Below the pieces are notes generated by a model. It was not told where the DNA came from. It ran no database searches and worked only from the letters and a program-made list of their open reading frames with translations. 64,000 nucleotides of DNA from Triglochin maritima (lineage: Eukaryota > Streptophyta > Magnoliopsida > Alismatales > Juncaginaceae): NCBI GenBank assembly GCA_963682175.1, contig OY821772.1, positions 47,514,925 to 47,578,924 of the forward strand, written 5' to 3'. The position numbers and the translations under genes are program-made. Position 1 is the first letter of the stretch, and each line of letters opens with the position of its first letter. Positions 3,315-46,866 of the stretch are shown here, in pieces.

Positions 3315-4276
3315 TGTTGAATATTGGTCTATGTTTGTTAAGGAAGCAAAACCAGGATGAAACGGTTGACCGGATGAGATCCGGTCTACCGATCCAAAAC
3401 TCCAGGCACTTTTGGCGATACAGGGTTTGGACGACCGAATTGGATTCGGTCCACCGAACCAAGGATCCCAGGCAACTAGGATCGGACGACCGAATTGGAT
3501 TCAGTCTACCATCAGAGGACAACAGACACTTCAGAACAATGAGTTCGGTAAACCGTTTGAGGGATTTTTGGTGTTCCGAGAATCTAAAAGTGTTTGTCGA
3601 AATTGGAATGGTCCACCGAGGGGTGATCGGTCGACCGTGGGGTTGTTGGAGAATTAGTTAGTTCGTGGGAGAAGGGTTCTCGCGATATACCGAGCCGCAT
3701 GAAGAAGCGTTCCAACGGTCAACCAGGAAGGATTCAGCTAACCGAATCGCAACATGAAGCGCTCATGTTTAGTCAAGGACAGTCGACCGAAGGAGCATCG
3801 GTCGACCGGTGCCCACGATTTTTCAGCATGGTTTTTGCTTAATTATAGCTCAGTTTTTTAGTCTATAAAAGGACTTGTTTGCTCTTGGTTTTAATATAAC
3901 GTACAAGTGTGATATTTCCTTCATTGTGAGTTGAGAGATTATGCTAGAGAAAGATCTAGGGTGATTTGGAGGACATATTGCCTCAATATACTTGTAATCT
4001 CGGTTGCTTCTCTTGTTGGAGAATCGGAAGAAGGAAAGGAAACCCGTAGGAGCCCCCTAAGGACGTAGGCACGTTGCCGAACCTTGTAAATCGCGTGTGT
4101 CGTGGTTGTTTTAGGTGTGCGTTTGTGTTTGCTTGTTTATTTTTCATCTTATTTGTGTTCTTGTTGCATTAAGTTTGGGAGAAGGTCTGAAGTTTATTTT
4201 CGCAAGTCAATATTCGGTATTACGTGGTGCATTTAATTTGTATCGTGTTAGTGCATTGTTAGATCTCCTCCGAGCA
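3315..4276 (+). mobile_element. solo LTR, copia type, with palindrome pairs
   Basis: A 962-bp insertion bounded by TG and CA and flanked by the 5-bp duplication ATTAT (3310-3314 and 4277-4281). Copy 2 of the segmental duplication has the empty site with a single ATTAT at 16928-16932, proving the boundaries. The 5' half holds degenerate CGGTCGACCG-type motifs paired 19-20 bp apart (for example 3783 and 3802). A TATA-like TCTATAAAAGG lies at about 3861. The distal part resembles the LTRs at 41824 and 45273. No internal coding region remains, as expected after LTR-LTR recombination. Confidence 0.9.
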
Positions 4277-5699
4277 ATTATCACTTGCATTTTCTTTTCG
4301 AAAGCATTACCGCTTGTATTTTTATTTTTTTGTAATTAAATTAAACCCAATACGTGGCCCACTTTGCTATGACTTGATCACTAGTCTAGATATTTCAAGA
4401 TAAATTAGGAATCTATCAACTAAAGTTATTAAAGTGATATTATAACTTGTATATTGTTAAAGCTTGAATAGTGTAGCCATTTAGCAACTAACTAAAAACC
4501 AAGCACAAGGTGTGGGGCCATAGGCATTATGTGACATAAAATTCATTATCTTGAGGTGTACGTGGCAAAAATATCATTCTAAAAGGGGACTTCCGAACTC
4601 AATATCAGTAAACTATAGCACGTAATACCACAAATTTCATCTGAGATAAGAGGTAGGTTACAAGATCCCATGGTAAAAATAAAGTTCAAACGCTGTCAAA
4701 CAGAATAACTGTAAGTGGTAAAGAAATTGACAAGAGCAACATAAAAATATCCGTAATATTCTCTTCCGTATTTTCTAAAAAAACATTTTTTTCATTACTC
4801 TCAAGTCTTTACTTTTTTCAACTCTCTTTTTTAGGTGTTCAACTCTGCAAACTCGTAATGGTGAACCTCACGTCATCTAAAGTTAGGCTTGGAATCTCCT
4901 CCAATAAAAGTTAGGCTTGGAATCTCCTCCAAAAAAAGTTAGGCTTGGAATTAAAGCAATAGAACCACCATCCTCTCACCTTCTTCTGAAAGCTTGTTCT
5001 CCACTTTTTCATACAAGGGACTTACTTATTCAACTTTCCCTTGAAAATAAGTCGGGTTAAATATCTTGAGTACGTATGAGTAGTTCATAAATTGGTGTTA
5101 TTATCAAACGGGAGGTGTAAATGTAAATTCCAAAATTTCTTTGGTAGTCAAGTTCCTCAATATAATTCCAAATATAATATAATAAAAAATTCAAACCTTA
5201 CATTTTAGTATATAATGCAAGTTATCTCTGCACATCAAAAATCATAAAATCAGACATATGTTTTCAACAAGATTAATACTAGAATAAAAATGAAGGCATC
5301 TTATTTGTCGGTTTATTGATATTATATGAAATGATTATCAAATTTTACGATTTTCGACGTACATGAATAACTTATGCCATAGATCGAAATGTACAATTTA
5401 GATTTTCAATTATATCAAAAATTATAAGTATATTGAAAGAACTTCAACCTCAAGTAAATATAGAGAATCACAGTCCCATGCTAGCTATTAAAAATAATCC
5501 TCTAAGCTTAATTAACTAAAGCTCCATCCAAAAAATTACTCGACCAACCTAATTGGTGGACGCTGCTTTAGTTAGCATATATTCCTTTCGCCATCCCACT
5601 GATATCTATCCACAAACTCAATTGCCATTTCGCACTTCACAGCAAAAAAAACTAGCAGATTGATAGCCCAGCTGCATTAAGCACAAGCTTGTTTTAGAA
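4277..5699. other. upstream region of EF-hand A, no gene seen
   Basis: AT-rich spacer shared with copy 2 (about 16930-18823), where it is diverged up to about 5440 and then almost identical. It includes a short direct repeat (4880-4953) and a block at about 5195-5445 absent from copy 2. No convincing coding sequence. A weak TATA-like ATATATTCC lies at about 5577. Confidence 0.6.
4880..4953 (+). repeat. short tandem repeat, three units
   Basis: The phrase AGTTAGGCTTGGAATCTCC occurs twice in full, followed by a third partial unit, with a period of about 27 bp. Copy 2 has only two units (about 18256-18300), so copy number differs between paralogues. Confidence 0.8.
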
Positions 5700-5984
5700 A
5701 TGGCGATTATAGGCCAACAAACGCTGCCTAAGCAAGACATGACCATAGCCGAGTTCAAGGCGTGGCTGAGGAGGTTCGACACCAACCGTGACGGCCAGAT
5801 AAACGTTGAGGAGCTCCAGCGTGCACTCCAGAGCCTCCGGGTCGGATCCGCAAGGAGGAAAGCGCGTAGAGGCATGAAGGAAGCCGATGTTAATGGCGAT
5901 GGTCTGATCGACAAAGATGAGATTGAGAGGCTTCTGGATCATGTTCAGAGAAATTTCAACACGAAAATCCCACGTGCAAAGTAG
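5700..5984 (+). CDS. small EF-hand calcium-binding protein A
   Basis: Intronless 94-aa protein with two canonical EF-hand loops: residues 27-38 (D-T-N-R-D-G-Q-I-N-V-E-E) and 63-74 (D-V-N-G-D-G-L-I-D-K-D-E). Acidic residues occupy positions 1, 3, 5 and 12 of each loop, with Gly at 6 and Ile at 8, so both should bind calcium. The core resembles the plant family of roughly 100-aa two-EF-hand calmodulin-like proteins beginning F-K-x-W-L. No signal peptide or membrane segment; probably a cytosolic or nuclear calcium sensor. Its partner is unknown. The protein is identical to the copy at 18824. The ATG is the first in frame and follows a long identical leader. Recognition is at family level only. 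Confidence 0.88.
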   Translation: MAIIGQQTLPKQDMTIAEFKAWLRRFDTNRDGQINVEELQRALQSLRVGSARRKARRGMKEADVNGDGLIDKDEIERLLDHVQRNFNTKIPRAK

Positions 5985-7802
5985 ACATGTATGTCCATGT
6001 CTACATGCAATAAGCATTCGTGTCTGCTGTTTATTTGTCGGGCGTGCATGCATGTATTAAACGTAGTGTGTTGTGTTCTTAATTTGAAATCTGGAAGTGT
6101 TTGCTTGATGTGTTTGTTCTTTTGGCTATAAAATCAACAAAGAATTTTGTTGTTATGGTATTGTGCAATATTTGATATTAGTAGATCATATTCTGACTAA
6201 GAGATTCAAGAAGTTTTTTGGCAAGTGATTAATGTAACCCCGATTGCTAATCCTAATTGGCAAGGGAAGATTATAAAGTGGTTATAGATAAACATCCATC
6301 CCCAGAACCTGGCTCAGAAATTATCAAATCAAAATGGTTACTAATAATGAAGTGCAAGTAAAAGGTGTGATTGATTTGTAGTTTGTTAGAAAACTTGAAG
6401 TTTTGGAACTCAAATTCTACAAGTTTCACGACTCCCATAATTTTATATAAATATGGGTACGTTATTCCACTTCCACAAAAAACCCAAAGGAAGTCAAGCT
6501 CCATACAGTTTAACCTAAAACTGTAATTTTCTAATAATATCTAAAAAATAAAATATTCTTCTCAACTTTATCAAAATATATTTTTTTGTACTAATCACCC
6601 AAATTTGAGTATTGGGAACTCGAGTTCCAAGGTTTCCTCTACTTCCTTTCAAGCAATCACACTAAGAAGAAAAAACCACCAAATGTGTCTTGCTATTATA
6701 GGCTCCAACCAAATATCACGCCCTTTGGTTTAACTAGCAAGAGTTAAATTAAATTAAGGAAAGGCGGTTCAACATTGAAAAATACATCATGGTCTCTAAG
6801 AACGTAATTACGCCAAATCTTGTTATATTTTGTGTGTACTTGTGCTTTGTTTTTTATTTGTTTGGTTTGGAAATTGTAATTGGATGTTTAGTGTCGTATG
6901 GTTCATGCTTGTGGAGTTGTGGTCTTGTGGGTGGCTCGCACCTGTCTTGGTAAAACATCTTTGGTTGTTGTTTGCTTGGAGTTATTCCACAGATTGTATT
7001 TGTGTCACGGTAAAGCATCTAAGATTGTTGTTTACATGGGAGTAAATCTAACTTTTTTTCATTCTTAATATATTAATATTTTAAATTGCAAATCAACTCG
7101 TTGGAATGTATATATGCAAACCAACTAGACAGGTCTCAGTCGATCGAATAACCATCACCATCATAGTTATTTGATTGCGATGATATATAGTGCGATCAGA
7201 TTCCAAACCCTAACCCCAACATTACATAGTTTTTCAATATTGTTGCTGGCAATATAATACACGTTCACTAAGTAAGTACGCAACTTAATTTACTTTTCCT
7301 CCACTAATCACCGTCCTACTCTAATTGGGATTTCGGACAACGAACACGTCCGGATGCAGTTTCAAACTTTGTTTATTCGAAGACTCGATCAAAATTTTAA
7401 TGATGTTTTCGTCTTAATTACTTCCACCTTAATCTCATGACATGTTTGATGTCTATCGTGATACGATCTGTAGTCTTCCATATTCCAATTGATTGGTTGC
7501 TTCTTTTTCCTGATATATGTTAGGCTGCTGCCACTTTATTCCACGCAAAATTAAAGATGAAGAATCATTTCATGATGAAAGAAATCTATAAAAAGTCATC
7601 ATATCAGTGGAGAAGGAATCCACATCTAAACCATCAGAAGTGGCGCCAGACCATATCAACCACCCAAACATCAAATCCATTGTCACGTGACAAATAGGCA
7701 AATAGTAGAATATACAAATTATTGAGCCACTTTCCATTATTCCTTTTAGCCTTTAGGTGACTTGACGCCGACCAAAACCATATGCATCACAGACCAACCC
7801 CT
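5985..7802. other. spacer between EF-hand A and B, no gene seen
   Basis: AT-rich sequence. From EF-hand A to about 7385 it is almost identical to 19109-19535 plus 27971-28935 in copy 2, then identity falls abruptly. The only open frames are short. One 71-aa frame at 6830 is identical in both copies, but so is the surrounding non-coding DNA, so its conservation is not evidence of a gene. Confidence 0.6.
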
Positions 7803-7811
7803 ATAAATAAA
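7803..7811 (+). promoter_or_regulatory. TATA box of EF-hand B
   Basis: TATAAATAA lies about 70 bp before the ATG at 7878. This spacing gives a leader of roughly 40 nt. Confidence 0.6.
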
Positions 7812-7877
7812 CCTCCAACTTAATCCCATAAATTGCACACAAACATATCAGAATTAATTTTGTGATCATAATCAACT

Positions 7878-8198
7878 ATGGCAATCACGCAAAGCCCAAT
7901 CAATAGGCAGCCAGTAATGGTAGTCAACAAATCGGTGGCCACTGACATGTCGGTGGAGGACTTCAAGGACTGGCTGAAGAGGTTCGACGTGGACCAGGAT
8001 GGGCGCATAAGCCGCAACGAGCTCCGGGCGGCTATCCGGGCGGTCGGGGGACGGCTCAGCAGGTGGAAGAGCAAGCAAGGCCTCAAGAATGCTGATTCCG
8101 ATGGCAATGGCTACATAGACATTGGTGACACGGGAGAGGTTGATCATCTCATCTCCTTCGCCCAAACCACCTTGGGAATGAATATTGAAACTTATTAG
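7878..8198 (+). CDS. small EF-hand protein B, second loop altered
   Basis: Intronless 106-aa protein related to EF-hand A. The first loop, residues 37-48 (D-V-D-Q-D-G-R-I-S-R-N-E), is canonical. The second, residues 73-84 (D-S-D-G-N-G-Y-I-D-I-G-D), ends in Asp instead of Glu at position 12 and is followed by T-G-E-V-D where A has a regular helix. Asp at position 12 generally weakens or shortens calcium coordination in EF-hands, so this loop may prefer magnesium or bind weakly. There is a 24-residue N-terminal extension before the F-K-x-W-L segment. The gene is absent from the paralogous position near 29640, where flanking sequences are joined. A good TATA box supports expression. Family-level identification only. 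Confidence 0.87.
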   Translation: MAITQSPINRQPVMVVNKSVATDMSVEDFKDWLKRFDVDQDGRISRNELRAAIRAVGGRLSRWKSKQGLKNADSDGNGYIDIGDTGEVDHLISFAQTTLGMNIETY

Positions 8199-9801
8199 TT
8201 TTGGGTAATTAGTGGCTAATTTGGTATTGTTATGTAATAAGTCGCTTGTCGATATATGTATGGTTTTAGAAGAAAGTTGGAAACCAATGTGTTTCTTTTG
8301 CCTGTAGCTCGCTTGATCCCTTGTATATAACCTACAATTGTGGCAATAAAACAGATTAATTATCAAAGCCAACTTAAATTGGTGCAGATAGTCTCAATTC
8401 ACTGAACTCACTTTCATAAATTGTTTTAGAATTTTGTCTTGAACAATGCTTGACTATTTCCCAAAGCTAATAATGCATAACAAAAGTAAGTAAAGACGAT
8501 ATTACTTGAGTTTTATTAAGCAAGAAACTTTATACAAATCAAATGCATATATTCCTATAAATATTGTCGTGTTACTTCAAATGGACCACACACAATTGTT
8601 GAAAATATGTGTTATTATATAGATAGACGTTGGGAAAGTGTTAATTAATTAACTTTGATTTTTGTATTAAAATATGATTAGGAACGCTGCAACTTTTTGC
8701 TAACATGCATGGAGATATGGTATGGCATGATCTGTTAAGGTGCAGTTCATGCCCGTGTATTTTCTATTTCAGAAACGTTCTCCTAAATAACCGTTTTAGC
8801 AATTCAATTGGAATGTATATTGACAATTATTTAACTATCGACATTTATCTTTTTATATTAACAATTTCATGCAAATCCTCGATACGTATTTAATGGTATG
8901 CTGATATTAGATTTCATGTCTCCCCACTATTACTCTCTCTTTTCATGTGATACAATGCTCTTATATTTTTGTTGTTCAAATAAATCCATTTGACTAACTT
9001 TTTCATTGCTATCAGTTTGCCACTTTATTCCGTTAGATTTAAAAAATGAAGATTCCGCATGCGATAAAGAATAAATTATCTCCAGGATCGAATAAAGTTA
9101 CCTGTTTTGATTCCTTGTGGACCTTTCATTTTTTCTGACGATGCTACGAGCAATTTTCGTTAACAAGGCTGAGATTGGAGTAAGCTGAGTTTAATAACAG
9201 CTAATTATTATCAATTAAATTTAGAAAACTATTTGAATGGATATGTTAAGTTTGAAAGTCAAAAAGATTGTCCAATTTTGACTTTGGGTTCCAAATCCGT
9301 ATCCGGATCTTAATCGGGTCATATTCAGACGGATATGATCCACGTCTCTCCCCGCCCCGAGTCTGAACGACGAGTCAACGAACCCTACACAACGGGTCCA
9401 TCGTTCAAATTTGGTGTCTAGGTGTGCGCAGCGCAGGATGGGGAAAGGTGCGATTTTTGGTGGTGGCGAGGTTTTCGTTGGGAAATTAGAGCTCTTTCCG
9501 GATCTAGGTGGAGATGGGACCGGGAAATTTGGGAAATTAGGGTTCTAGATGAGATGCAGAGGAGAAAGGCCAAAATTATGATGGCGGAAAATCCGAAATT
9601 AGGATTTTTGGCGGATACGGTACAGATCAGGAAGAGAAAGATGCAACTTTTGATGCCGTAGAAAGGAAAAAATTCGCAATCTCAATGGCGGTAATTGCAA
9701 TTTCCGGCACAATATATGATTTTTGGATTGGAAGATGAAGATATAATTTTTATGTTGGAAAGACTTTGATAGAGAGTTAGGGATGTGGGAATAGGAGGAG
9801 A
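8199..9801. other. spacer between EF-hand B and the F-box gene
   Basis: No convincing gene. 8480-9320 aligns with 29660-30330 in copy 2 at roughly 90 percent by eye. About 9340-9705, which includes a short open frame at 9422, is present only here. The region just before 9802 is the F-box leader and aligns with 30330-30990 around the hAT-type insertion there. Confidence 0.5.
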
Positions 9802-11327
9802 ATGGATATGGAAATGTTGGAGGACCATCTAGAGGAATCGTTGGTAAGGGAGAATGCCGAGGGCTTAACTGTTTCAATACAAGATAGGTTTAGTAATTTG
9901 CGCCGCGAGATTATTGATACCATACTCGTAAAGCTCCCTATCAAGGACGCAGCAAGAACTAGTGTTCTGTCTCGGAAATGGAGGTACAGATGGCACTCCA
10001 TGTCGAAGCTCATGTTTGGACGGAAATCTTTGATTCGGCAGCAGTCCAAGTGCGTGAAGCAACAGGAAGACGGCTGGAAGAAGCTCGCGAGAATTGTGGA
10101 TCAAGTTCTTGTTGTTCACGCAGGTCCAATTCGAGAATTTTCGCTTGTTGCCGGGCTTCCCGCTGCCAGCGATGTTGATCGGTGGTTGATTCGCCTAATG
10201 AGGGTTGATATTAGTTGCCTCACACTTTGGTTCTTGTATGGCAGACTTAGACTGTCGTCACATGTTTTTGCTTGCGAGTTGTTGGATAAGTTGATACTTC
10301 ACCGCTGTGAGCTTAGACTACCTGTTTCATTCAGAGAGTTTCCAAGGCTCAAGTCACTAAAGCTTTGTAACGTTTTGGTTTCTGATGATGGACTTGGATT
10401 GCTAATCAGCAACTGCCCTTGCCTGGAGCAATTGGTGTTGCTTGGTGTCGAGAGCTGCCGTCATCTTCAAATTTATGCACCAATGCTGGTGAAATTAATT
10501 CTCCACGGTGCATTTCACGATTTATGCTTTGCCTATGGCCCTGAACTTATTTCTGCAAACATCGGTTTATCCCTCTCTAGAGACATTTGGCACAGTTTGG
10601 GTAAAACCCGTAGTCTAGATAAGGTTTTTGGAGGCATTCAGACAATTAAGCAGCTTTTCATGGAAGAACAATTCCTGCAGGTGATAAATTGGTTATTGTC
10701 TAAAATAAAATCAGTCCTTTTACTTGTTAAGATGAGAAAAGAACTGACGCAAATTTTTCCTCCCCTTATGCCTTATGCCTATTGTAGTTTCTCTCTGAGA
10801 GCTGTGGACTGGAGAGCCTTACCATGAAATTTGAGCACTTGAGTAGAATTCACTTGGATATAAATTTCTCGTCATTAAAGCAGACATTACTTGTTATTAG
10901 CCTCTTCAGAAGCTCTCCTAATTTGCAGAACCTCTCCTTGAAGGTGATTTTCTAGTTAGGCCATCATACATATACAGATATTGTTTGCTTTGTTCGTCCA
11001 TTTAAAATTTAATAATTTTTGGTTCAATGATTTCCATAGGCAATCATCGAAAATGATATTAATCGCCCTGTTATTAACTTTTGGGAATCACAACAACCTT
11101 TAGACTGCTCTTTGGACCAGCTAACGGTGGTGGAGATATCCGACATTATTGGTGCCAAACATGAACTGCAATTTATTAGATTCATTCTTGCGAATTCTCC
11201 AATGCTTGTCACAGCCGAAGTAACAACTAATCAGACTAAACGAGTACTTGACGAAGCAAAAATGTTCAAGGAGTTGTTGAGGTTCAATAGAGCTTCAGAT
11301 CGGGCACAAATCATATATTCAGATTGA
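9802..11327 (+). CDS. F-box/LRR/FBD protein, three exons
   Basis: Modelled exons: 9802-10680, 10788-10943 and 11040-11327, all phase 0 with GT-AG borders, giving 440 aa, the usual size for plant F-box/FBD proteins. An F-box lies at about residues 29-66 (L-R-R-E-I-I-D-T-I-L-V-K-L-P-I-K-D-A, then S-V-L-S-R-K-W). Leucine-rich repeat-like segments follow (residues 150-345), and the last exon holds the FBD region ending F-K-E-L-L-R-F-N-R-A-S. Such proteins are substrate adaptors of SCF ubiquitin ligases, with the F-box binding SKP1-like proteins. The substrate is unknown. Reading through the first donor would add a short tail and stop at 10827; the spliced model restores the family pattern. The copy at 30990-36194 is a pseudogene. 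Confidence 0.85.
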
Positions 11328-12205
11328 GGGAATCATATGACATTTTGACTGAGATTGCAGGTACTAATTTGTTTTCCAAATGTTTAATCTGTTAAGTCCA
11401 TTCGATAATCATACATAAGCTGGTTATTTTTGGTTGCTAAAGATTATTATAAACTCCACTGCATTCTCATCTGAGGAATCATCACAGGATTTTTATGTGG
11501 GCAAGCCGTCTACCCTTGATGATAAGAATGGTGTGTGTCATTATTATGGTAGTAATGTTGACAAGATGAGCATCATAGCACGGTATTGGTATTTGGTAGA
11601 ATTGCATGACAATTTTGGTAGAGCGACTCATCGATCAGTTTGGGGTGGGAGTCATGACACACTTCGCTCTACAGATATGTTAATGAATCTGTATCGTTCT
11701 TTTTCCCAAGTAAGCTGGGTAAACCTTAGAGAAAATATTTCACTGGCGTGAGCACCCAGAAGCTGCTGAATGTTAGGATTCTTTGTGTAGATATGCCCAT
11801 TTTTCAGCATTTTTTTGTGTATAGTTAGGATTCCTGGATATTTCCTGATCACTTAATGTAAGGATGTTTGTCTAGAACAATAAGAATGTTTGATCATATC
11901 TCAGTGCATGATCACATAACGTACAAGAAAACTGATTATTGACTATGAAAAACTAATAGGAAATAGTGCCCTTTTTGTCTCAAGTGAATGTTTTCCTCTG
12001 CCTTTTGTTCTTTCATTTCAATAATTGGTTTTTAAATATATATACGCGTAATTCTTTATTTCGCATTTTATGGTTTTGTTTGTACTACATACATGAGTTC
12101 TACATTACAAGCAGCTTACCTTTGGACGCTTAATCGCTTATCTTTGGACGCTTAGCATAGTAGTGTTATTATTCCATGTTGGTCCAGTGCCTCCAAAAAG
12201 AACAA
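11328..12205 (+). other. 3' region of the F-box gene, duplicated
   Basis: This stretch is shared with 36195-37057 in copy 2 and most likely holds the 3' UTR and downstream spacer. A 105-aa open frame at 11434-11751 is not kept open in copy 2 because of small indels, so I do not call it coding. Confidence 0.5.
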
Positions 12206-13467: not shown

Positions 13468-14026
13468 ATCATATATCTTCAAAAACCAAGCAAAAAACGA
13501 ATCGGAGAATGTTATCCCTTTGTGATGGGGCGGTGGATTCCACTGTGTCTGTGTTGACAAGGAATGAAGCACTTTGAGACGATTGCAACATTCAGAAGCC
13601 TGCAATCCATGAAGTTGAATAGTTGCAATATTAGTAATGTAGAAGTATTGTCTTCTCACTAAGAAATTAACATATAGATATAATTTCATATATTAATAGA
13701 AAATTAAAATGCTTCCATCGATTATTGCCACTTTTGCCAAATGCTCGGAGTGATCCCCACAAAATGAGTTTGACGTCAATTCAACAAATTGATCCATTGA
13801 TTCCAAACAGATATATATGTGGGAACTTTGTTATCCATTGCTTTTGGAATCCATCCAACCCTCTTGGGTGACACAATCTCTTATTAACTAACTACAACCA
13901 ACTAAATTCGATCGACCGACTTCACCATGATGTCTCTTTATCCATTCCAACCACCACAAACGGAAAATTAACTGAAATTCATGTATGGATAGTTACTTCC
14001 ATTCTTAACGAACAGTTCCACTGGAA
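13468..14026. repeat. 559-bp tandem duplication, unit A
   Basis: Begins GATCATATATCTTCAAAA and ends at the next occurrence of the same phrase at 14027. It is repeated at 14027-15514 with few changes outside the Harbinger insertion. No gene seen in the unit. Confidence 0.85.
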
Positions 14027-15514
14027 TGATCATATATCTTCAAAAGACCAAGCAAACTAAGGGCGTCCACTATCATGACCTAGGTCTCCTGATGATCTAG
14101 GTCATGCACACACTATCTTCCTTTCTCTCTATGTCACATTATCATAAACTGCCTATTTCTTATTCACTATTCATCAATTTACCATCATCTAGGTCATCAC
14201 ATTCTCTTTCTTTCATATCATTAGTTTTCTTCTCAACTTTTATTTTATTACAAAATCATTTATATTTACCAAAACATTAAAAATCTATTTGGAAAAATCA
14301 AAATATCAATAAATCTTGTATTTCATTTTATAACCTATCTCATCAGGATGACTTAGGTCATGATAGTGGATGACCTAACTATTTATCAGAATATAAACCC
14401 CCTAATTATTATAACAAATAACAAAACAAAATACCAATAAATCTTGTATTGTTATTTTTTATCATTTTTAATATATTTTTTAAATCTTATATTTTTTTAA
14501 ATATGTTTTCTAATTATTATTTTATTTTTTAAATTTTGTTTTAAATTTTTTCCTGAATCGACCTACGTAAATGAGTGTAGTGAGTGCACACCCCCACAGA
14601 CTTGATAACCTCACCTATTTTTTGTTTTAATTAGTTTTAATTTTTGTTTAATATTTAGTTGTAAATAATTCATTACGGTGGATATGAGGATTTGTTTTTA
14701 TGGAATAAAATAATTCAACTTTTCAATATGTTCTCTCCTACACATGATTTTGAAAAAATTAACAAAATATTTAATTTTAAAAAAAAAATTAAAAAAGATT
14801 ATAAAACATATTTTAAAAAAATTAAAACAAAAAGATTATAATTTTTTTATAAAAAACAAAACCAAAAACAAAAAAACAAAAAAAACAATAAATCCACCAC
14901 GACCAGGTCGGTCGGTGAGGTGGCGACCTCCACTGGGTATGTCTTCGGTGGATGACCTCCCATAGTGGATGGTCTAAAGCAATTGGAGAATGTTATCCCT
15001 TTGTGATGGGGCGGTGGATTCCATTGTTTCTGTGTGGATAAGGAATGATGCACTTTGAGACGATTGCAACATTCAGAGAAGCCTGCAATCCATGAAGTTG
15101 AATGGTTGAAATATTAGTAATGTAGAAGTACTGTATTCTCACTGAGAAATTAACATATAGATATAATTTCATATATTAACAGAAAACTAAAATGCTTCCA
15201 TCGATTATTGCCACTTTTGCCCAATGCTCGGAGTGATCCCCACAAAATGAGTTTGACGTCAATTCAACAAATTGATCCATGTATTCCAAACAGATATATA
15301 TGTGGGAACTTTGTTATCCATTGCTTTTAGAATCCATCCAACCCTCTTGGGTGACACATTCTCCTTATCAACCAACTACAACCAACTAAATTCGATCGAC
15401 CGACTTCACCATGATGTCTCTTAATCCATTCCAACCACCACAAACGGAAAATTAACTGAAATTCATGTATGGATAGTTACTTTCATGCTTAACGAACAGT
15501 TCCACTAGAATGAT
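14027..15514. repeat. 559-bp tandem duplication, unit B (split by MITE)
   Basis: Matches unit A once the Harbinger element 14061-14974 and one TAA are removed. It ends at about 15514 with the phrase TTCCACTAGAATGATC, matching the end of unit A. Confidence 0.85.
14061..14974. mobile_element. Harbinger/Tourist-like MITE, 914 bp
   Basis: The terminal inverted repeats are GGGCGTCCACTAT and, at the other end, the complement of GACCATCCACTAT. It is flanked by the 3-bp duplication TAA (14058-14060 and 14975-14977) typical of PIF/Harbinger. The interior is AT-rich with no transposase. Its left half and the TTATCA...CCCTAATTATT segment resemble both ends of the larger element at 40600-48070, so it is probably a deletion derivative of that family. 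Unit A of the local tandem duplication shows the site without the element. Confidence 0.85.
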
Positions 15515-15897
15515 CGAAACGTATGGATTCATATGACGTTTGGTTAAAAAATTAAATAAAAATGAATTTATCCACTTAAAATCAACTTCTGGATATTAAG
15601 TAGCAAATTTAAAATTTGTGTGTGCGTGTGTTTTTCACACGTACGTACAATTCTCTTCAGAATTTTCAATCAAAATAATTTTTTAACTACCCAGAAAGAA
15701 AACCAAAAGGCTTGACAAGAATATGCAATTATGCTTTCCAGGAAGAAGAAAGGAAAAGATTCCCATAGAACAGTACGCTCTATATAGCCATCAAACATGA
15801 ACATTATGGAATGCACTTCACTAATTAGAGGCAATCAGCCACTTAATATTGAGTTGATTTCTTCTGTAACTCTTAAGAGCTAGCTAGTTTGATCAAG
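15515..15897 (+). other. promoter region of EF-hand C
   Basis: AT-rich spacer. A TATA-like TATATAG lies at 15781-15787, about 110 bp before the ATG at 15898. Nothing else recognised. Confidence 0.5.
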
Positions 15898-17257: not shown

Positions 17258-17954
17258 TGTTAGGGAATAAAATAAATCACAAATACGTAGCGGATTCAAA
17301 AATAGCAAATCCAATAGAGATAGAAATCACAATTGCAAATCCACAAACACTAAATCATACAAAACACACAAGATTTAACGTGGAAACTCAATACGAGAAA
17401 AATCCCGGATGACACAATCCCAATCTACTATAGAGAAAACGAATTACAAAGAGAGACTTACAGGACACACGAACAACCGACGAGAATACCCAGTTAAATT
17501 TGCTCACACCGAATCTACAATGATGTTCTCTCTCTTTTCTCTCAAGAATACAAAGTAGACAATAGAAATTATTTTAAGACAAATGGGGACGCAATTGCCT
17601 TTATATAGTAGGTCAAAACATGTATTAATTGCACCAAAATTGCGTGGAGAAAAGTACAAAGCGTGGGCAAAACTGGGTCAAACGGTCGACTGAACTTCAA
17701 ACTGTATCACAATCCAGGGCTTCCTCGGTCGACCGAAGCTTAAGTTCTGGTCGACCGAAAAACAACAGACATTTTTGCCCAGCTCTGAGTGTGTGCCCGG
17801 TCGACCAAACAACTACTATCGGTCGACCGAAAAACGACAACTACTTTGGCTGGACAAATCAGAACACACGTCCAGTCGACCGAACTCCTTTCGATCGACC
17901 GAATGTCTATTTTATCTCACAAATACTTTAATCACATCTTCAAGGTAAACTACA
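17258..17954 (-). mobile_element. solo LTR, copia type, minus strand
   Basis: An insertion absent from copy 1. In plus orientation it starts TGTTAGGG and ends GGTAAACTACA, so the minus-strand LTR is TG...CA. On the minus strand CTATATAAAGG (about 17600-17612) is a TATA box, with the palindrome motifs upstream of it (TCGA centres at 17686, 17729, 17751, 17801, 17823, 17876 and 17895). The left flank ends TAATA and the paralogous right flank resumes after TAATA at about 17967. A few extra bases (17955-17962) blur the right duplication, so the right edge is uncertain by about 10 bp. Confidence 0.75.
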
Positions 17955-21445: not shown

Positions 21446-21448
21446 ATT

Positions 21449-21460
21449 TGGTATCAGAGC
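21449..21460 (+). promoter_or_regulatory. primer-binding site of gypsy element
   Basis: TGGTATCAGAGC three bases after the LTR, complementary to the initiator tRNA-Met 3' end. Confidence 0.9.
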
Positions 21461-21568
21461 GTTGATCTCGGCGTACTTGTCTAAAGAAACCACCTTTGAG
21501 TTAGGAGTTAGGTCTAGAGGATCATGCATGCACAGATTATATTGATATTGTCTTGTTTCCTTTGGCAG

Positions 21569-29520: not shown

Positions 29521-29528
29521 AATCCATT

Positions 29529-33197: not shown

Positions 33198-34390
33198 AAT
33201 ATGGAGAAAAGAATTGACGTAATTTTTTCCTCCCCTTTTATGCCTTATGCCTATATTGTAATTTCTCTCTGAGAGCTGTGAACTGGAGAGCCTTACTATG
33301 AAATTTGAGCACTTGAGTAGAATTCACTTGGATAAAAATTTCTTGTCGTTAAAGCAGACGTTGCTTGTTTTTAGCCTCTTCGGAAGCTCTCCTAATTTGC
33401 AGAACCTCTCCTTGAAGGTGTTTTTCTAGTTAGGCCATCATACATATACATATATTGTTGCTTTGTTCGTCCATTTAAAATTTAATAATTTTTGGTTCAA
33501 TGATTTCCATAGGCAATCATCGAAAATGATATTAATCACCCTGTGATTAACTTTTGGGAATCACAACAACCTTTAGATTGCTCTTTGGACCAGCTAATGG
33601 TGGTGGAGATATCCGACATTATTGGTGCCAAACATGAACTGCAATTTATTAGATTCATTCTTGCGAATTCTCCAATGCTTGTCACAGCCGAAGTAACAAC
33701 TAATCATGTAGGATCCTATCCTAATCCTAATTGAGTGTTTATTGTTGTTAGGTGGTGATTAGGAGTTGCATTGGACGGCTGGGATTGAAGATTGTTGGAT
33801 GAGGGGTTGAGATGGAGTGGAGGTGAGATGAGTGGTGGAGATGGAATGGATTGGAATGGATGGTTGAGATTGGAGGAGGAGGAGGAGGAGATATTTATGG
33901 TGAGCTCTCTCTCTCTCTCTCACTCTCTCGCGACTCTCTCCCTCACGTTTCTCTCCCACTCTCAGTGGTGCTCCGGCGAGGAAGAAGAGGTGATCTCCGG
34001 CGAGTGGAGCTCGGAGTCGTACGTGTTGGAGGTGAGTGGTTGGTTGATAGCTCATCTCGTTCGTTTCTCATTTTGGTTCACTCTCTCTCTCTCTCTCTCT
34101 CTACCTCACTCGTGTTTCGGTGGTCGTGGTTGGTTGGTGGAGGTTGCCGGAGGTGGAGTTGTGGTTGTGGATCGTCGAGGAGGTGTTGATCGTCGTTCGA
34201 GCGAGGGATTCGTCGATGGATCGTGATTTTGGGGAGACGTGCTCGTGGAGGCGTCGTCGTGGTTCTTCAAAGGTTTCTTCAAACCTTCCGGTATGTCAAC
34301 CCGCTCACTTAAGTATCGTGAGTATTTGGAAGTCAACGGTAGACCTTCCGGCTCGTCGCAAGTAAACATGCAACAGCTTTTATTGCTTGA

Positions 34391-35070
34391 TCGGTCGACC
34401 GGTTGGTGCAAACGGTCGACCGTTCGTGAAGAGATTTCGGGTTCTGCCTCAAATCGGTCGAACGATGCCCCAGGGGCGGTCGACCGATTGTGCGTGGGAG
34501 GCAAGCTTGGGGAGATTCGGTCGAACGGGTCCCCTTTGTCGTTCGACCGTGTGCACCGACATGGGTCGGGTAGGGCGTTGACCATCTAAACGGTCGACCG
34601 CCTGTATGACTTCGTCCAACCGTGACTTAAGTGAGAATAGTGGTCGGTTCGACCGAAGGTGGTTTCGGTCGACCGAACTTGTTGCTTAGCGTGGGGGGAC
34701 GCTCTGGTGGAATTCGGTCGACCAAGAGTGCTCGGGCGTTCGACCGAATTCGTGGCGCGTGCGAGGGATCATTCCCTGGTGGGATTCGGTCGACCGAGAG
34801 TGCTCGGGGGTTCGACCGAATTCGTTGTGGAGTTGTGGGATTTGTCCATGGTGACTTTCGGTCGAACGGGGCCCCTTTGCCGTTCGACCGATTGGTCGTT
34901 TTGTTCGTTGAACCTGGGAGTTGACCATCTAAACGGTCGACCGTCCATTGACTTTGGTTCGACCGAACAAGTGTTGTTGGTGGGAATCGGTCAACCGATG
35001 GAGTGTCGGTCGATGTGATTGCCCTGTATTTGCTTGATTCGGTCGACCGGGACTTTTGGTTCGGTCGACC
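34391..35070 (+). repeat. paired palindrome array in LTR B
   Basis: TCGA centres at 34395/34416, 34458/34480, 34521/34543, 34594/about 34615 (degenerate), 34649/34669, 34718/34740, 34790/34812, 34862/34884, 34937/34959, 34991/35010 and 35043/35065. Pair spacing is 19-22 bp, with 22 in most. Period is 63-75 bp through most of the array. Confidence 0.9.
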
Positions 35071-35179
35071 GTTTGTGTCCAGTTTTGCACTATGGAGGTG
35101 TTGTGGTTGTGGTCGTCCGTGTGGGGCGAGTTGTGATGCTGATGTTCTTTCGACAAGTGTGCTAGGGTGCACGAGTGTT

Positions 35180-35705
35180 GCGGTGGTTGGTTGAAAGAGA
35201 CATGGAGCCTCGTAACTGTGTGAGAGCTTGAGTTGGCTGAAAAAGGCCTGGAGCCCAGATTAGAATGTGGTGTTGCGGTGGTTGGTTGAAAAAGACCTGG
35301 ATCCCCGTAACTGTGTGAGAGCTGCGGTTGGTTGAAAGAGACCTGGAGCCCAGCTAGTCTGTGCGGGGTTGGTTGAAAAAGACCTGGAGCTCCGTAGTGC
35401 GTTCAGGTTGGCTGAAAAAGGCCTGGAGCCTGAGCAGAGACCACGTGTAGGGGTTGGTTGAAAAAGACCTGGAGCCCTTAGACGTTTGGGTTGGTTGAAA
35501 AAGACCTGGAGCCCTTGGTCGTGTCGTGGTAGCTGCGGTTGGTTGAAAAAGACATGGAGCCCTTGGTCGTGTCGTGGTAGCTACGGTTGGTTGAAAAAGA
35601 CCTGGAGCCCAGCTTGGCGACGAGTGTGTGATGTGGTGGTTGGGTGAAAAATCCCTGGAGCCCCGTGACTGTGGTGTGTGTTGTAGTTGGGTGAAAAAGC
35701 TCTGG
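35180..35705 (+). repeat. minisatellite in LTR B
   Basis: About eleven units centred on GGTTGGTTGAAAAAGACC followed by TGGAGCCC, separated by variable 10-40 bp spacers. LTR A carries the same repeat with fewer units. Confidence 0.85.
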
Positions 35706-37057
35706 AGCCCAGCCTGTTTGAGATGCTTTTCTTGTTAGTAGAATTGCATGCTATGGTGTTTTCATTTCATGCATTTTAGAGTTTGGCATACGGGGTTTCC
35801 TTCTGGAAACTCAGGCATTGTTGCATGTTTACTTTCAGGCCGTGATCGGCGATAGGGTTGGTGACCGAGGAGAGGAACACCGCTACCGGATCCAGCTTTC
35901 TCTCAGTTGAGGTCGAGTGATTACTGCTTTCGTTGTATAGTCTTTTGATGTAACCACAACTTTTGAAATACTCTGATGTTCATATATATATATTATATAT
36001 ATGTTGGTGCACTTGTCTTCCTTATTTGCGTAATATCCTCTGTTGATTGTGTGTTATTAAAATTTAAAATTTTCCGCTGTGTTGGGGATGTTACAAATCA
36101 GACTAAACGAGTACTTGACGAAGCAAAAATGTTCAAGGAGTTGTTGAGGTTCAATAGAGCTTCAGATCGGGCACAAATCATATATTCAGATTGAGGGAAT
36201 CATATGACATTTTGACTGAGATAGCATGTACTAATTTGTTTTCCAAATGTTTCATCTCTTAAGTCCATTTGATAACCATACATAAGCTGGTTATTTTTGG
36301 TCGCTAAAGATTATTATAAAATCAACTGCATTCTCATCTGAGGAATCATCGCAGGATTTTTATGTGGGCAAGGCGTCTACGCTTGATGATAAGAATGGTG
36401 TGTGTGTCATTATTATGGTAGTAATGTTGACAAGATGAGCATCATAGCACGGTATTGGTATTTGGTAGAATTGCATGACAATTTTGGTAGAGCGACTCAT
36501 CGATCTGATGGGGTGGGAGTCATGACACACTTCGCTCTACAGATATGTTCATGAATCTATATCGTTCTTTTTCCCCAAGTTAGCTGAGTAAACCTTAGAG
36601 AAAATATTTCACTGGCGTGAGCACCCAGAAGCTGCTGAATGTTAGCATTCTTTGTGTATATATGCCCATTTTCCAGCATTTTTTGTGTATAGTTAGGATT
36701 CCTGGATATTTCCTGATCACTTAATGTAAGGATGTTTGTGTAGAACAATAAGAATGTTTGATCATATCTCAGTGCATGATCACATAACGTACAAGGAAAC
36801 TGATTATTGACTATGGAAAACTAATAGGAAATAGTGCCCTTTTTGTCTCAAGTGAATGTTTTCCTCTGCCTTTTGTTCTTCCATTTCAATAATTGGTTTT
36901 TAAATACATATACGCGTAATGCTTTATGTGTTTTTTCCGCATTTTATGGTTTTGTTTGTACTATGTACATAAGTTCCATATGACAAGCAACTTACCTTCG
37001 GCCGCTTAGCTTAGTAGTGTTATTATTCCATGTTGGTCCAGTGCCTCCAAAAAGAAC

Positions 37058-41823: not shown

Positions 41824-43417
41824 TGTTGGCTTTTTGGCCTTAATCCGTATTTTGATGATGTAATTAAACCTAATCTTAATAAGGACATGTAGATTAGCAC
41901 ATGTAGTATAATAGTATACATATTGTATTGTGCTAACATCTACAGGTGATCAAGACTCAAGAAAGAAGAAGAATCAAGTCAAGACATGTAATCAAGCTAG
42001 GATTGAAGACATGTAATTTTACCTTTCTTTGAGAATTAGGAACTTATGTGAATTGAGCATAACTTAAGCTAATATGCATGCATTCACACACTAGGTTCCT
42101 TTTAGGAGTCACACACAAAATATCATATTATTTGGACTCCATTAGATCACCTAAACACCTAAAACATTGGTCGCCAGTCTGCCTGAGTTCGGTCGACCGT
42201 TCACCTTTCGGTCGACCGGTTATACACAATATTTGTTATACCAGACCAATCCGTTCAACCGATCACATTTCTATTAACCGTTTACCCAGACCTGTTCGGT
42301 CGACCGGTAGACCTTCGGTCGACCGTTTCGTTTGCCATTTCTGGTAAAAATACGACCGTTTTATTTGTCGTATTATACAACGGTCGTATACACATTTGTC
42401 TCAATATTCACCCCCATATACATTAGAACCGGTCGAACAAAATACATCTTTCGGTCGACCGTTTAATTCGTGAAAACCCCCCTGCTATCGGTCGACACAA
42501 GTTTGTCCAACCGATCAAGATTTCTCTCTACCGAACCCAGTAGTTCGGTCGACCGGTACCTGCTCGGTCGACCGTTGACCTATAGAACTTAAGTGATTCG
42601 GTCGACCAGTACCTATGTTCGGTCAACCGATCCATCAACAGACTCAAGGGTTCGGTCGACCGATACACCTTTCGGTCGACCGTTTCTGGACAGATTTCTG
42701 AACCCGATTTTCTGTTTTGTGTATCTTGCACAAAACCCAATCAAATCTTGTCCAAACGGCTAGAAATCTTTAGGAGCTTATAAATAGAGGTTCACACTTA
42801 GTTTTCCACAAGATTTCACAACTCCAAAGTGTCAAACTTATAGTGAGATTTTCCACAACCTCAAAGCTCCCAATTAGTGATTCCAAAGCCTAATTTCCAC
42901 ATCCTTCATCACACAATCATCTAGCAATTGTTGTGCTCAATTAGAGAGTGAGTTCCACTCAAGTTACCATTGTTGTAAAGAGAGCAAGGGTCTTGATGAA
43001 AGCCCAAGACAAAGTGAGCAAGGGTCTTGGTGAAAGCCCAAGACAAAGAAGTAGAGATTTCGGTGAAAGCCCGAAGTGATCCTCTCGGGTTGTGAGAGGT
43101 GGTGCCAAGCTCGGCGAGGGTTGTTCGCGAGCTTGAAGACTTGTAAAAGGTGTTGCTCCCGGCCCGGAACGGGGAGGCATAGTGAAGACGCAAGAGGGGC
43201 TCGAACGGAGATTCGAGAGGGGCTTGCAAGAGAGGACGTAGGCGCGGCCGAACCTCTGTAAAACCGACGCGTCTTCTCTTTGTGGTTTGCATTACTTTCT
43301 ACTTGTGTTTGATTTGTTTTTAATTTCCGCTGCATTTCTTTGATCGATCAACCAAGTAGTTAATTAGGGTTTAATAGTGATTAGTGGACCCATAACCCAC
43401 ACGATCCTATTCCAACA
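41824..43417 (+). repeat. 5' LTR of gag-only element
   Basis: 1,594 bp. The palindrome pairs at 42190-42690 lie upstream of TATA-like CTTATAAATAG (about 42778). TCGA centres include 42193/42212, 42300/42319, 42433/42455, 42549/42568, 42602/42623 and 42656/42676. Confidence 0.93.
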
Positions 43418-43432
43418 TTTGGTATCAGAGCC
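43418..43432 (+). promoter_or_regulatory. primer-binding site of gag-only element
   Basis: TTTGGTATCAGAGCC directly after the LTR, complementary to initiator tRNA-Met. Confidence 0.9.
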
Positions 43433-43468
43433 TCGTTCGTTAATTTTGTTCTTAACCGATAAATTAAC

Positions 43469-44638
43469 ATGACTCTTAATGCATCCACACCAAATGAATC
43501 ATGTAAACCACCATATTTTGATGGAAATAACTTTAGCTCATGGAAATTTAAAATGTCTTCATTTATTAAATCCATGAATGCTAACTTGTGGTTTATGATT
43601 CAAACTCCATATGAATCACCTAGATATCATATTAGTAAATGGAGTTTAGAAGATGAGAAAAATGCATCCCTAAATGCTAAGGCTATGAATGTCATATTTT
43701 GTGCATTAGGAGATGAACTTTTTAATGTTGTTTGCTCATGTGATAGTGCTTATTCAATATGGCAAACATTAGAAAAGAATTTTGGTGAAGGAGATTCACC
43801 AACCGGGAAGAAGGGAGAAGCAAATCCTAAGGATGTAGCTCAAGCAAAGAAAATGGAGATTAACTCAACATCTTCATCATCATTAAGCTCATCCGATGGA
43901 GAAAGTGAAGATGAGGTATCCTCTAGCTCTTCTTCAAGTAGTAGTTCAAAAGATAATGCCCATGATTTTAATGAACTACAAAATGCATTTCAAAGATTAT
44001 TTGAAAAATATAAAGAACTTCACAAGACTAATCAATTAGCAAATGAGCAAATCCATGATCTTAAATGTCAAAATGCATCTATCTTAGATGATAAAACGAA
44101 TTTGCTTGCTAAAATTGATGCTCTCACTTTAGAAAATGCATGCTTGAAGAATGAGTGCTTAAATGTTAAATCTAACTCATCTAATGCAATTGAAAGTCAT
44201 ATGCTTGAAAATGACAAAATTGACTTGCTAAAGAAACTAGATAAATCATATCTTGAAAGCAAGCAAACTTTAAATGACTTAAATTGCATGAATGAAAAAG
44301 TTGCAAATTTAGAGATTCACATGCTTAACATGAATGAAAAGCATAATTCCATGATTAAAAATCTAAATTGCTTAAACGAATCTCTAGCAACTAAAAACAG
44401 TGAACTTAATGTCTTAAATGAAAATTTGTCAAATAAATTGCATAAGTTCACACATGGCAATAAAAACAATTTTTATGTTAAAAACTTTCCTATTCAAATT
44501 ATTGTTAAACATAATGTTGCCATGAAAAAGAAAGTAAGTGTAGAGGTACCAAAATCAACTTGGATTTGGGTACCAAAAGCTAAACTTAATGGACCCAAGC
44601 AAAAATGGGTACCAAAATCTACACTTGTAGGAGCTTGA
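43469..44638 (+). CDS. truncated copia Gag-like protein
   Basis: 389 aa, uninterrupted. The N-terminal 100 residues match copia Gag (P-Y-F-D-G-N-N-F-S-S-W-K then S-I-W-Q-T-L-E). A serine/acidic-rich linker (about 130-165) leads into a long coiled-coil-like region rich in Asn, Leu, Lys and Glu (170-330), and a C-terminal basic segment with repeated W-V-P-K. The CCHC knuckle expected in copia Gag is absent, and the usual UBN2 mid-region looks deleted between L-E-K-N-F-G-E-G and K-K-G-E-A. It could assemble with Gag of an autonomous relative to package the RNA. No Pol follows. Confidence 0.85.
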   Translation: MTLNASTPNESCKPPYFDGNNFSSWKFKMSSFIKSMNANLWFMIQTPYESPRYHISKWSLEDEKNASLNAKAMNVIFCALGDELFNVVCSCDSAYSIWQTLEKNFGEGDSPTGKKGEANPKDVAQAKKMEINSTSSSSLSSSDGESEDEVSSSSSSSSSSKDNAHDFNELQNAFQRLFEKYKELHKTNQLANEQIHDLKCQNASILDDKTNLLAKIDALTLENACLKNECLNVKSNSSNAIESHMLENDKIDLLKKLDKSYLESKQTLNDLNCMNEKVANLEIHMLNMNEKHNSMIKNLNCLNESLATKNSELNVLNENLSNKLHKFTHGNKNNFYVKNFPIQIIVKHNVAMKKKVSVEVPKSTWIWVPKAKLNGPKQKWVPKSTLVGA

Positions 44639-45272
44639 GGAAGAGATTGGTGGTGACCGGGTGAGCCAAAGCGTCGAATTCGAATCCGGTTGCATCACCA
44701 AATCAAGATTGGAGCTATTCAAGATTCAAGTTTGGTATAAAAATTTCTATCTCTAAAATTTCTGAAAAATAGCTCTAATCTAGTTAATATGCTTAATTGT
44801 CATATCCTTAGAGTTTAATTCATTGCAAATCATATACCCTATTCATTGCAAATCTTTTACCACATCCATTAATTTTAAATGTCAAATTTTAAATGGATGT
44901 TAGAATAAGGCTTAAGTTGAAACTTAAATGAACTTAACTTGAATCATATTCATTGTTTCCATTTAGCCTTATTGATAGGGGGAGCTTAATTGTCATATCT
45001 TTTATTAGAGTAATGAAGTGCTAAATTTAGGGGGAGCTACTTCATTACAAGACATCCAACTCTATGCTTAAAGTCATAATTAATTGTTGTTTTTGATGGA
45101 TGTCAAAGGGGGAGAAGTAATAGATTAGGGATACTTGAAATATACATGAAAATTGTCAAGAAAAACTATGCACATCCATAGGGGGAGCATTTATATGCAT
45201 AGTTAACTTATACATTTTTCAAGTATTAGGTTGGTTTAAGATATAGGTTGCCATCATCAAAAAGGGGGAGAT

Positions 45273-46866
45273 TGTTGGCTTTTTGGCCTTAATCCGTATT
45301 TTGATGATGTAATTAAACCTAATCTTAATAAGGACATGTAGATTAGCACATGTAGTATAATAGTATACATATTGTATTGTGCTAACATCTACAGGTGATC
45401 AAGACTCAAGAAAGAAGAAGAATCAAGTCAAGACATGTAATCAAGCTAGGATTGAAGACATGTAATTTTACCTTTCTTTGAGAATTAGGAACTTATGTGA
45501 ATTGAGCATAACTTAAGCTAATATGCATGCATTCACACACTAGGTTCCTTTTAGGAGTCACACACAAAATATCATATTATTTGGACTCCATTAGATCACC
45601 TAAACACCTAAAACATTGGTCGCCAGTCTGCCTGAGTTCGGTCGACCGTTCACCTTTTGGTCGACCGGTTATACACAATATTTGTTATACCAGACCAATC
45701 CGTTCAACCGATCACATTTCTATTAACCGTTTACCCAGACCTGTTCGGTCGACCGGTAGACCTTCGGTCGACCGTTTCGTTTGCCATTTCTGGTAAAAAT
45801 ACGACCGTTTTATTTGTCGTATTATACAACGGTCGTATACACATTTGTCTCAATATTCACCCCCATATACATTAGAACCGGTCGAACAAAATACATCTTT
45901 CGGTCGACCGTTTAATTCGTGAAAACCCCCCTGCTATCGGTCGACACAAGTTTGTCCAACCGATCAAGATTTCTCTCTACCGAACCCAGTAGTTCGGTCG
46001 ACCGGTACCTGCTCGGTCGACCGTTGACCTATAGAACTTAAGTGATTCGGTCGACCAGTACCTATGTTCGGTCAACCGATCCATCAACAGACTCAAGGGT
46101 TCGGTCGACCGATACACCTTTCGGTCGACCGTTTCTGGACAGATTTCTGAACCCGATTTTCTGTTTTGTGTATCTTGCACAAAACCCAATCAAATCTTGT
46201 CCAAACGGCTAGAAATCTTTAGGAGCTTATAAATAGAGGTTCACACTTAGTTTTCCACAAGATTTCACAACTCCAAAGTGTCAAACTTATAGTGAGATTT
46301 TCCACAACCTCAAAGCTCCCAATTAGTGATTCCAAAGCCTAATTTCCACATCCTTCATCACACAATCATCTAGCAATTGTTGTGCTCAATTAGAGAGTGA
46401 GTTCCACTCAAGTTACCATTGTTGTAAAGAGAGCAAGGGTCTTGGTGAAAGCCCAAGACAAAGTGAGCAAGGGTCTTGGTGAAAGCCCAAGACAAAGAAG
46501 TAGAGATTTCGGTGAAAGCCCGAAGTGATCCTCTCGGGTTGTGAGAGGTGGTGCCAAGCTCGGCGAGGGATGTTCGCGAGCTTGAAGACTTGTAAAAGGC
46601 GTTGCTCCCGGCCCGGAACGGGGAGGCATAGTGAAGACGCAAGAGGGGCTCGAACGGAGATTCGAGAGGGGCTTGCAAGAGAGGACGTAGGCGCGACCGA
46701 ACCTCTGTAAAACCGACGCGTCTTCTCTTTGTGGTTTGCATTACTTTCTACTTGTGTTTGATTTGTTTTTAATTTCCGCTGCATTTCTTTGATCGATCAA
46801 CCAAGTAGTTAATTAGGGTTTAATAGTGATTAGTGGACCCATAACCCACACGATCCTATTCCAACA
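45273..46866 (+). repeat. 3' LTR of gag-only element
   Basis: 1,594 bp. The five substitutions seen relative to the 5' LTR are CTTTCGG/CTTTTGG, TTGATG/TTGGTG, GGGTTG/GGGATG, AGGTGT/AGGCGT and GCGGCC/GCGACC. Confidence 0.93.

Follow-up and report, generated by a model that had tools for sequence, protein, structure and literature searches.

Paired arrays of one palindrome in the long terminal repeats of copia-type and gypsy-type retrotransposons of Triglochin maritima

Retrotransposons at the locus

The 64,000-bp stretch of Triglochin maritima DNA analysed here (contig OY821772.1, positions 47,514,925 to 47,578,924; hereafter ‘the window’) holds retrotransposons of both the copia and the gypsy type, and their long terminal repeats (LTRs) contain arrays of a single palindrome, CGGTCGACCG, the units of which are arranged in closely spaced pairs. 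Six array-bearing LTR families are present, three copia-type and three related gypsy-type (Table 1). A first-pass annotation of the window had presented these LTRs as unrelated families; their coordinates hold and TG..CA ends are present, with the correction that the LTR at 17258–17954 lies on the minus strand, whilst the three gypsy LTRs proved to be related and to make up one lineage rather than three. Target duplications of 5 bp are readable for 3315–4276, 19536–27970, 33707–36095 and 41824–46866.

Table 1. Retrotransposon features of the window (positions counted from its first base; TSD, target-site duplication; ^, predicted splice junction).
Feature	Position	Strand	Remarks
Solo LTR, copia family A	3315–4276	+	TSD ATTAT, TG..CA ends; TATAAA at 3864
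Palindrome array, copia family A	3363–3808	.	Pairs 19 bp apart
Solo LTR, copia family B	17258–17954	-	No clean TSD; array upstream of TATA box on minus strand
Palindrome array, copia family B	17683–17901	.	7 units, pairs 19–22 bp apart
5′ LTR, gypsy element with intact gag-pol frame	19536–21445	+	TSD CAAAT; 99.7% identical to 3′ LTR
Predicted LTR intron enclosing whole array	19856–21184	+	Donor AAG^GTATGT, acceptor TTTCAG^G
Palindrome array, 5′ gypsy LTR	19967–20602	.	19 units at ≤2 mismatches, 9 pairs
gag-pol open frame	21518–26011	+	1497 amino acids, Ty3/gypsy domain order, sub-threshold chromodomain
3′ LTR, same gypsy element	26061–27970	+	Array 26492–27127
Older solo LTR, gypsy relative	31262–33197	+	Array 31734–32342, decay mainly CpG transitions
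Solo LTR, gypsy relative	33707–36095	+	TSD AATCA
Palindrome array in 33707 LTR	34392–35071	.	20 units at ≤2 mismatches, pairs mostly 22 bp apart
5′ LTR, gag-only Sirevirus-type copia element	41824–43417	+	TSD CTTTG; array 42190–42682
Copia-type gag open frame	43463–44638	+	No pol after; five GGGGGAG tracts ahead of 3′ LTR
3′ LTR, Sirevirus-type copia element	45273–46866	+	Array 45639–46131

The gypsy element at 19536–27970 has LTRs of 1910 bp and carries gag, protease, reverse transcriptase (RT), RNase H and integrase in one frame, as Ty3/gypsy elements do, with the domains RVP_2, RVT_1, RNase H, integrase and SH3_Tf2-1; a candidate Chromo domain at its C-terminus scores 18.3 bits against a cut-off of 25.1. 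The solo LTRs at 31262–33197 and 33707–36095 are related to the LTR of this element, and gypsy pairs score far above shuffles when the palindromes are masked.

The gag-only element at 41824–46866 bears several marks of a Sirevirus: palindromes with a CGG-CCG core in at least eight copies (nine exact in the 5′ LTR, eight in the 3′ LTR), an array upstream of a conserved TATA box, and multiple identical polypurine tracts, the five GGGGGAG tracts lying between 44980 and 45272. No RT match was found in any of the five stretches (L111–L115) downstream of loci related to it, and non-autonomous Sirevirus-type copies may be common in the genome. The two solo LTRs 3315–4276 and 17258–17954 are taken as copia because their relatives are tied to copia pol or gag: the relative of family A (L067, 74% over 511 bp) adjoins copia pol in L105, and that of family B (L061, 75% over 615 bp) holds a copia gag and adjoins copia pol in L104. 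On a tree, the RTs of L104 and L105 (59% identical) pair as sisters with support of 92/94. Together with the RT of L116, which its position presumably assigns to L095, an element without an array, they make up a clade with support of 100/100 that stands apart from nine RTs of loci found through RVT_2, the copia RT domain. No GGGGGAG tract was found in L104 or L105, and the RT tree that places them holds no Sirevirus reference.

One palindrome, arranged in pairs

In the window, CGGTCGA occurs 154 times against 2.76 expected, and the pair pattern CGGTCGA-N5..25-TCGACCG matches 40 times against an expectation of 0.00. All 49 exact copies of CGGTCGACCG, and 87 of the 89 with at most one mismatch, lie inside the eight LTR copies, which cover 13,011 of the 64,000 bases; outside the LTRs, the decamer turns up twice when one mismatch is allowed. 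A search that made no use of the motif of the first-pass annotation returned CGGTCGACCG as the top palindromic 10-mer in each of six window LTRs. Adjacent palindromes are 17–22 bp apart in 37 cases, against 11.0 ± 2.9 under random placement, which bears out the earlier claim that pairs of one motif 19–22 bp apart occur in copia-type and gypsy-type LTRs alike.

Abundance and absence across the genome

The arrangement is abundant in the genome as a whole (1,063,122,952 bases). The pattern CGGTCGAMCGN{8,18}TCGACCG gave 157,084 forward matches, a count that includes overlapping matches in triplets, and 157,582 reverse matches, with none for the reversed control; a looser pattern, CGGN4CCG-N8..12-CGGN4CCG, gave 142,826 against 2,838 for its control. 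The first 100 pairs listed make up 25 arrays within 420 kb; in 44 of these pairs the two units start 22 bp apart, and in 83 they start 19–22 bp apart. It was also found that 28 of 30 junctions between LTR, primer-binding site (PBS) and gag carry an array, defined as at least four units with at most one mismatch within 1.5 kb upstream of the primer site TTGGTATCAGAGC; 20 of these are gypsy, by a gag-pol match of 60–99% identity, and eight copia, by a match of 27–35% to the copia-type gag of the window. The junctions are the first 30 sites on contig C1 with TTGGTATCAGAGC, in coordinate order, and some are near-identical neighbours (L084/L085, L086/L087, L091/L092); the two that fall short have no unit (L095) and one unit (L098). 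The 30 PBS-anchored stretches contain 198 perfect CGG-N4-CCG palindromes, of which 192 are CGGTCGACCG.

The palindrome array is not universal among the LTR elements of this genome. The unit was absent from all six stretches upstream of a primer site that we take to be of Athila type, five of the six being closely related, and from 29 of the 30 loci around the best RVT_2 matches; arrays in long LTRs could have been missed here, as nine of the 12 such loci looked at reach only about 0.75 kb past the pol stop and the remaining three stop earlier, in frame. The sole exception, L043, has four palindrome units (480–571) about 1 kb upstream of its copia RT; it is one of the nine RVT_2 loci on the RT tree, the other eight of which are without the unit.

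Scans of the IMG/VR database for paired palindromes returned 9 and 18 stretches (26 loci, L004 being in both), with GC contents of 0.53–0.73 and not plant-like in composition. One of them, L003, is 7.8 kb long with a GC content of 0.55 and contains 11 CGGTCGACCG-like units; it is apparently unrelated.

Position of the arrays within the LTR

According to the first-pass annotation, the array precedes the TATA box in copia LTRs and follows it in gypsy LTRs. This holds in the window, the gypsy TATA box being weak in two of the three LTRs; gypsy loci from the wider genome begin too far downstream for the position of the TATA box to be checked. In all eight Sirevirus-type genome loci the array is upstream of the TATA box, and the distance from the start of the last unit to TATAAA is 105–107 bp, against about 106 bp in the window element; the corresponding distance is 65 bp in the window copia-A LTR (3799 to 3864), 63 bp in two copia-A relatives and 87 bp in copia B.

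The gypsy array lies between a donor-like GGTATGT/C, seen in the three window LTRs, and an acceptor-like TTTCAG^G, seen in the same three LTRs and in 18 of the 20 gypsy genome loci, and an LTR intron enclosing the array is predicted from these signals. With an assumed transcript start at 19705 in the 19536 LTR, the predicted intron would contain 17 ATGs, exon 1 none and exon 2 one. Two points count against splicing: the predicted intron is not U-rich (T 0.29, GC 0.51; exon 2 T 0.36), and plant LTR elements are generally without introns (PMC12786077).

Two further features of the gypsy LTRs were observed. A short inverted repeat, conserved among gypsy loci L074–L102 and with GGAAACTCAG^GCA or GGGAACTCAG^GCA at its end, lies about 284–325 bp before the PBS, just upstream of the predicted acceptor, and is present in the window gypsy LTRs too. 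A second tandem repeat, with a GGTTGAAAAAGACCTGGAGCCC-like unit, occupies 35175–35713, downstream of the palindrome array.

Phasing and conservation

The distances between palindromes were examined in 52 stretches, of which 30 are PBS-anchored, 16 were picked for their arrays and six come from the window; they represent 14 LTR families, 12 of them array-bearing. For the window alone, coherence is highest at a period of 10.5 bp (0.44 against -0.004 ± 0.044); with one representative for each of the 12 array-bearing families the best period is again 10.5 bp, with a coherence of 0.52. Over all distances, the 10.5-bp coherence is 0.46 in gypsy (null standard deviation 0.059) and 0.56 in copia (0.085), and the distances in the 12 families peak at about 22, 42, 51–53, 63–64, 72–75, 85, 94–96, 105–108, 115 and 124–128 bp. 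The gaps between pairs, taken alone (n = 53), have a best period of 10.4 bp, exceeding all 20,000 smoothed nulls. When within-pair distances are left out, coherence is above 0.5 in eight of the 12 families (two of these with n = 3) and 0.48 with families pooled, with a leave-one-out minimum of 0.43. Counts of exact-unit pairs in the genome are 345 at 36–38 bp, 9,780 at 41–43 bp, 24,807 at 51–53 bp and 5,660 at 57–59 bp. A 10.5-bp comb is seen in the palindrome distances of most families, and is not seen in two abundant gypsy families.

The palindromes are also better kept than the sequence between them. When the 19536 and 33707 LTRs are aligned, palindrome columns are 87–90% identical and spacers 45%, with a maximum of 72% for masks slid along the alignment; in comparisons with the older 31262 LTR the values are 67–72% and 43–50%, with a maximum of 65%. 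In each of 12 further alignments, identity is higher in the palindrome columns than in the spacers.

What the arrays may be for

The reading that we prefer, and that seems to us evenly balanced between right and wrong, is that the paired CGGTCGACCG arrays are a platform on which one dimeric DNA-binding protein would dock, adopted separately by unrelated lineages to drive their own transcription. The palindrome is the same in both superfamilies, and is paired and abundant; the selecting agent would be a protein rather than an RNA or DNA structure, its effect would be activation, and its adoption would have been independent. One dimer of the putative protein would occupy each palindrome, so that two dimers would sit side by side on a pair whose palindromes are set about two DNA turns apart. 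The likely route would be the selection, in each lineage, of single pairs that arose by chance or were borrowed, followed in gypsy elements by tandem duplication of a block of about 72 bp.

Several observations weigh against a common binding protein. The data come from one genome. The spacing within pairs differs, being 19 or 22 bp, and the window copia-A LTR alone prefers a period of 9.1 bp; for the gaps of copia arrays by themselves (n = 14), a period of 8.5 bp gives a slightly better fit (0.51) than one of 10.5 bp (0.47). When within-pair distances are left out, there is almost no phase in L062 (0.06) and L068 (0.13), which come from the two largest gypsy families sampled, or in L086 (0.02, n = 4), and L101 stands at 0.29. 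Weighted by copy number the comb is not clean, since distances of 46–48 bp (8,631) are nearly as frequent as those of 41–43 bp; the 17 distances of 46–48 bp among the stretches sampled include 10 from the L074/L062 family and six from the family of the intact gypsy element of the window. Just three of the 12 further alignments exceed every slid mask, and alignment gravitates to palindromes. When palindromes were masked and arrays compared between the superfamilies, four of 48 copia × gypsy pairs beat the best of 40 shuffles, where about 1.2 would be expected (the 48 pairs being eight copia by six gypsy stretches, several of one family). This array test is itself weak, because two of four gypsy × gypsy pairs also stay within their shuffles; for scale, the other two of the four, and two of six copia × copia pairs, are above them. 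Finally, as RNA, each of the six arrays folds better than its dinucleotide shuffles (z -2.7 to -9.8).

The first-pass annotation had left a choice between convergence on one host factor and exchange of an LTR module. Exchange, which we consider rather unlikely, would mean that template switching, gene conversion or nested insertion carried single pairs, or a segment of an LTR, between elements of the two superfamilies, after which they spread and diverged. The four above-shuffle pairs speak for it: they arise through short pieces beside a palindrome, examples being a common 9-bp spacer, AATTGGATT, that separates two palindromes, and a stretch of 10 bp next to a palindrome, the largest excess being 18 against 11 for L103 and the 31262 LTR. 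The weakness of the array test also leaves room for an old transfer or for the exchange of single pairs; an old transfer would be invisible, as fast spacer divergence hides homology in two of the four gypsy × gypsy pairs. The transfer of a long module is not supported, since all nine palindrome-masked copia × gypsy pairs of window LTRs fall within shuffles and no long tract is found, and it is also at odds with an array position relative to the TATA box and a modal within-pair spacing (19 against 22 bp) that differ between the two superfamilies. It had been suggested that a single recombination event would explain the motif if most families lacked it and those that carry it shared long homologous tracts; the lack is partly true, as the Athila-type stretches and the 29 copia RT loci indicate, and the tracts were not found. 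Convergence on one protein is the part of that choice that we infer.

It is improbable, in our view, that the hairpins which the pairs could form are what is selected, feeding the production of small interfering RNA or packaging, as has been proposed for maize Sirevirus palindromes. In maize, small RNAs are in excess at Sirevirus palindrome clusters (PMC10760457), and the folding of the arrays noted above agrees with this idea. With palindromes kept and spacers shuffled, however, the folding of three of the six arrays does not surpass random (z 0.5, 0.0 and -0.3) and that of the other three is somewhat better (z -1.4 to -2.6), and hairpins need neither self-palindromic units nor a 10.5-bp comb across pairs. 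In gypsy pairs the outer half is better kept than the inner (258 of 280 against 231 of 280 letters, Fisher p 0.0009), an excess that is significant by itself only in the 19536 LTR, and no covariation was found at the variable inner half-site position, where 12 of 28 combinations are Watson-Crick and about 13 are expected from the margins. Together, the asymmetry of the half-sites and the lack of covariation favour recognition of double-stranded DNA over a hairpin.

A role in chromatin rather than in activation also appears improbable; here the host would impose or tolerate the dense CpG palindromes as a signal for methylation, heterochromatin or the phasing of nucleosomes. CpG observed/expected is 1.1–1.7 in arrays against 0.3–0.9 in their spacers, nucleosomes would also suit a 10.5-bp comb, and of the 31 departures from the palindrome in the older 31262 LTR, 17 are CpG transitions, the kind of change to be expected where DNA is methylated. 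A methylation target, however, needs no fixed decamer, and the 192 of 198 CGG-N4-CCG palindromes mentioned above have one and the same middle. Least probable is that the protein is encoded by an element and used in trans by unrelated families, as an anti-silencing factor like the VANC protein of the Arabidopsis element Hiun would be: an array on the gag-only copy would suit use in trans, but the one intact gag-pol frame searched has the usual retrotransposon domains only.

Insertion preference for palindromes (PMC6911290) was set aside as irrelevant, as the palindromes sit inside the LTRs; likenesses to the B-box, MSA/MYB and other plant motifs were considered and dropped.

Relation to known systems

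Promoter motifs of LTRs have mostly been described family by family. The copia half of the present observations is already known: the repeated motifs (RMs) of Sireviruses are palindromes with a CGG-CCG core in Ty1/copia elements; each element has at least eight of them, which lie ahead of the TATA box, for the most part in the upper half of the LTR, and form CpG islands (Bousios et al. 2010; PMC2829016). The Vitis RM unit is CGGTCGACCG, identical to the unit described here, and RMs were reported to be absent from classic, non-Sirevirus copia elements (PMC2829016). In T. maritima, by contrast, the unit also fills gypsy LTRs and those of a copia clade without Sirevirus marks, and fixed pairing and 10.5-bp phasing do not figure in the consulted sections of PMC2829016.

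In maize, the Sirevirus LTR palindrome is CACCGGACNNNGTCCGGTG, for which cis-regulatory and hairpin roles have been proposed and which is also found in Helitrons (PMC10760457). The likeness is that a single palindrome dominates the structured regions of a host's copia elements; the difference is that gypsy LTRs are here full of CGGTCGACCG, whereas maize Ty3/RLG elements are generally without a peak of such structures (PMC10760457). Del/Tekay gypsy elements resemble those of the window in having long LTRs (1.1–4.8 kb) with, in monocots, a CpG-rich stretch of variable length, and across ten angiosperm genomes, elements without a CpG island predominated in the cluster to which all eudicot Del elements belong; the word ‘palindrome’ does not occur in the accessible part of that source (PMC4029996). 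LTRs are known to recruit host factors through cis-sites, as with the heat element of ONSEN (bound by HSFA2) and the W-boxes of EVADE (bound by WRKY factors) (PMC12786077). The arrays would be comparable in offering sites to a host transcription factor, binding being suggested here by sequence patterns; ONSEN and EVADE are single families, whereas one motif here spans superfamilies in more than 100,000 copies.

What is apparently new, then, is the arrays in gypsy elements, the further copia clade, the use of one palindrome by both superfamilies, and the phasing. No report of CGGTCGACCG in gypsy LTRs was found in the literature, which is weak evidence, most subscription journals being out of scope.

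If the arrays do bind one dimeric protein, a single palindrome with some 150,000 pairs in a 1-Gb genome would give one point of access to both the activity and the silencing of retrotransposons. The RM work left the question of what binds to the CGG-CCG boxes of Sireviruses; this would become directly testable, with dense paired palindromes as protein bait, and the array-free elements (Athila-type and several copia lineages) would serve as controls within one nucleus. A wider proposal, possible and on balance doubtful, is that each plant has one host factor whose site is a ‘control word’ of LTRs, here CGGTCGACCG, which would be captured repeatedly, lie on one face of the helix and govern many retrotransposons of both superfamilies.

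Neighbouring features

A 535-bp direct repeat (13500–14031 and 14981–15515; 95% identical) is without an array and without clear LTR ends. The regions 3087–12205 and 16704–37059 are a tandemly duplicated block of F-box/leucine-rich repeat sequence, the first copy of which has gained one LTR insertion and the second four, and the duplication supplies empty or near-empty sites for all five insertions.

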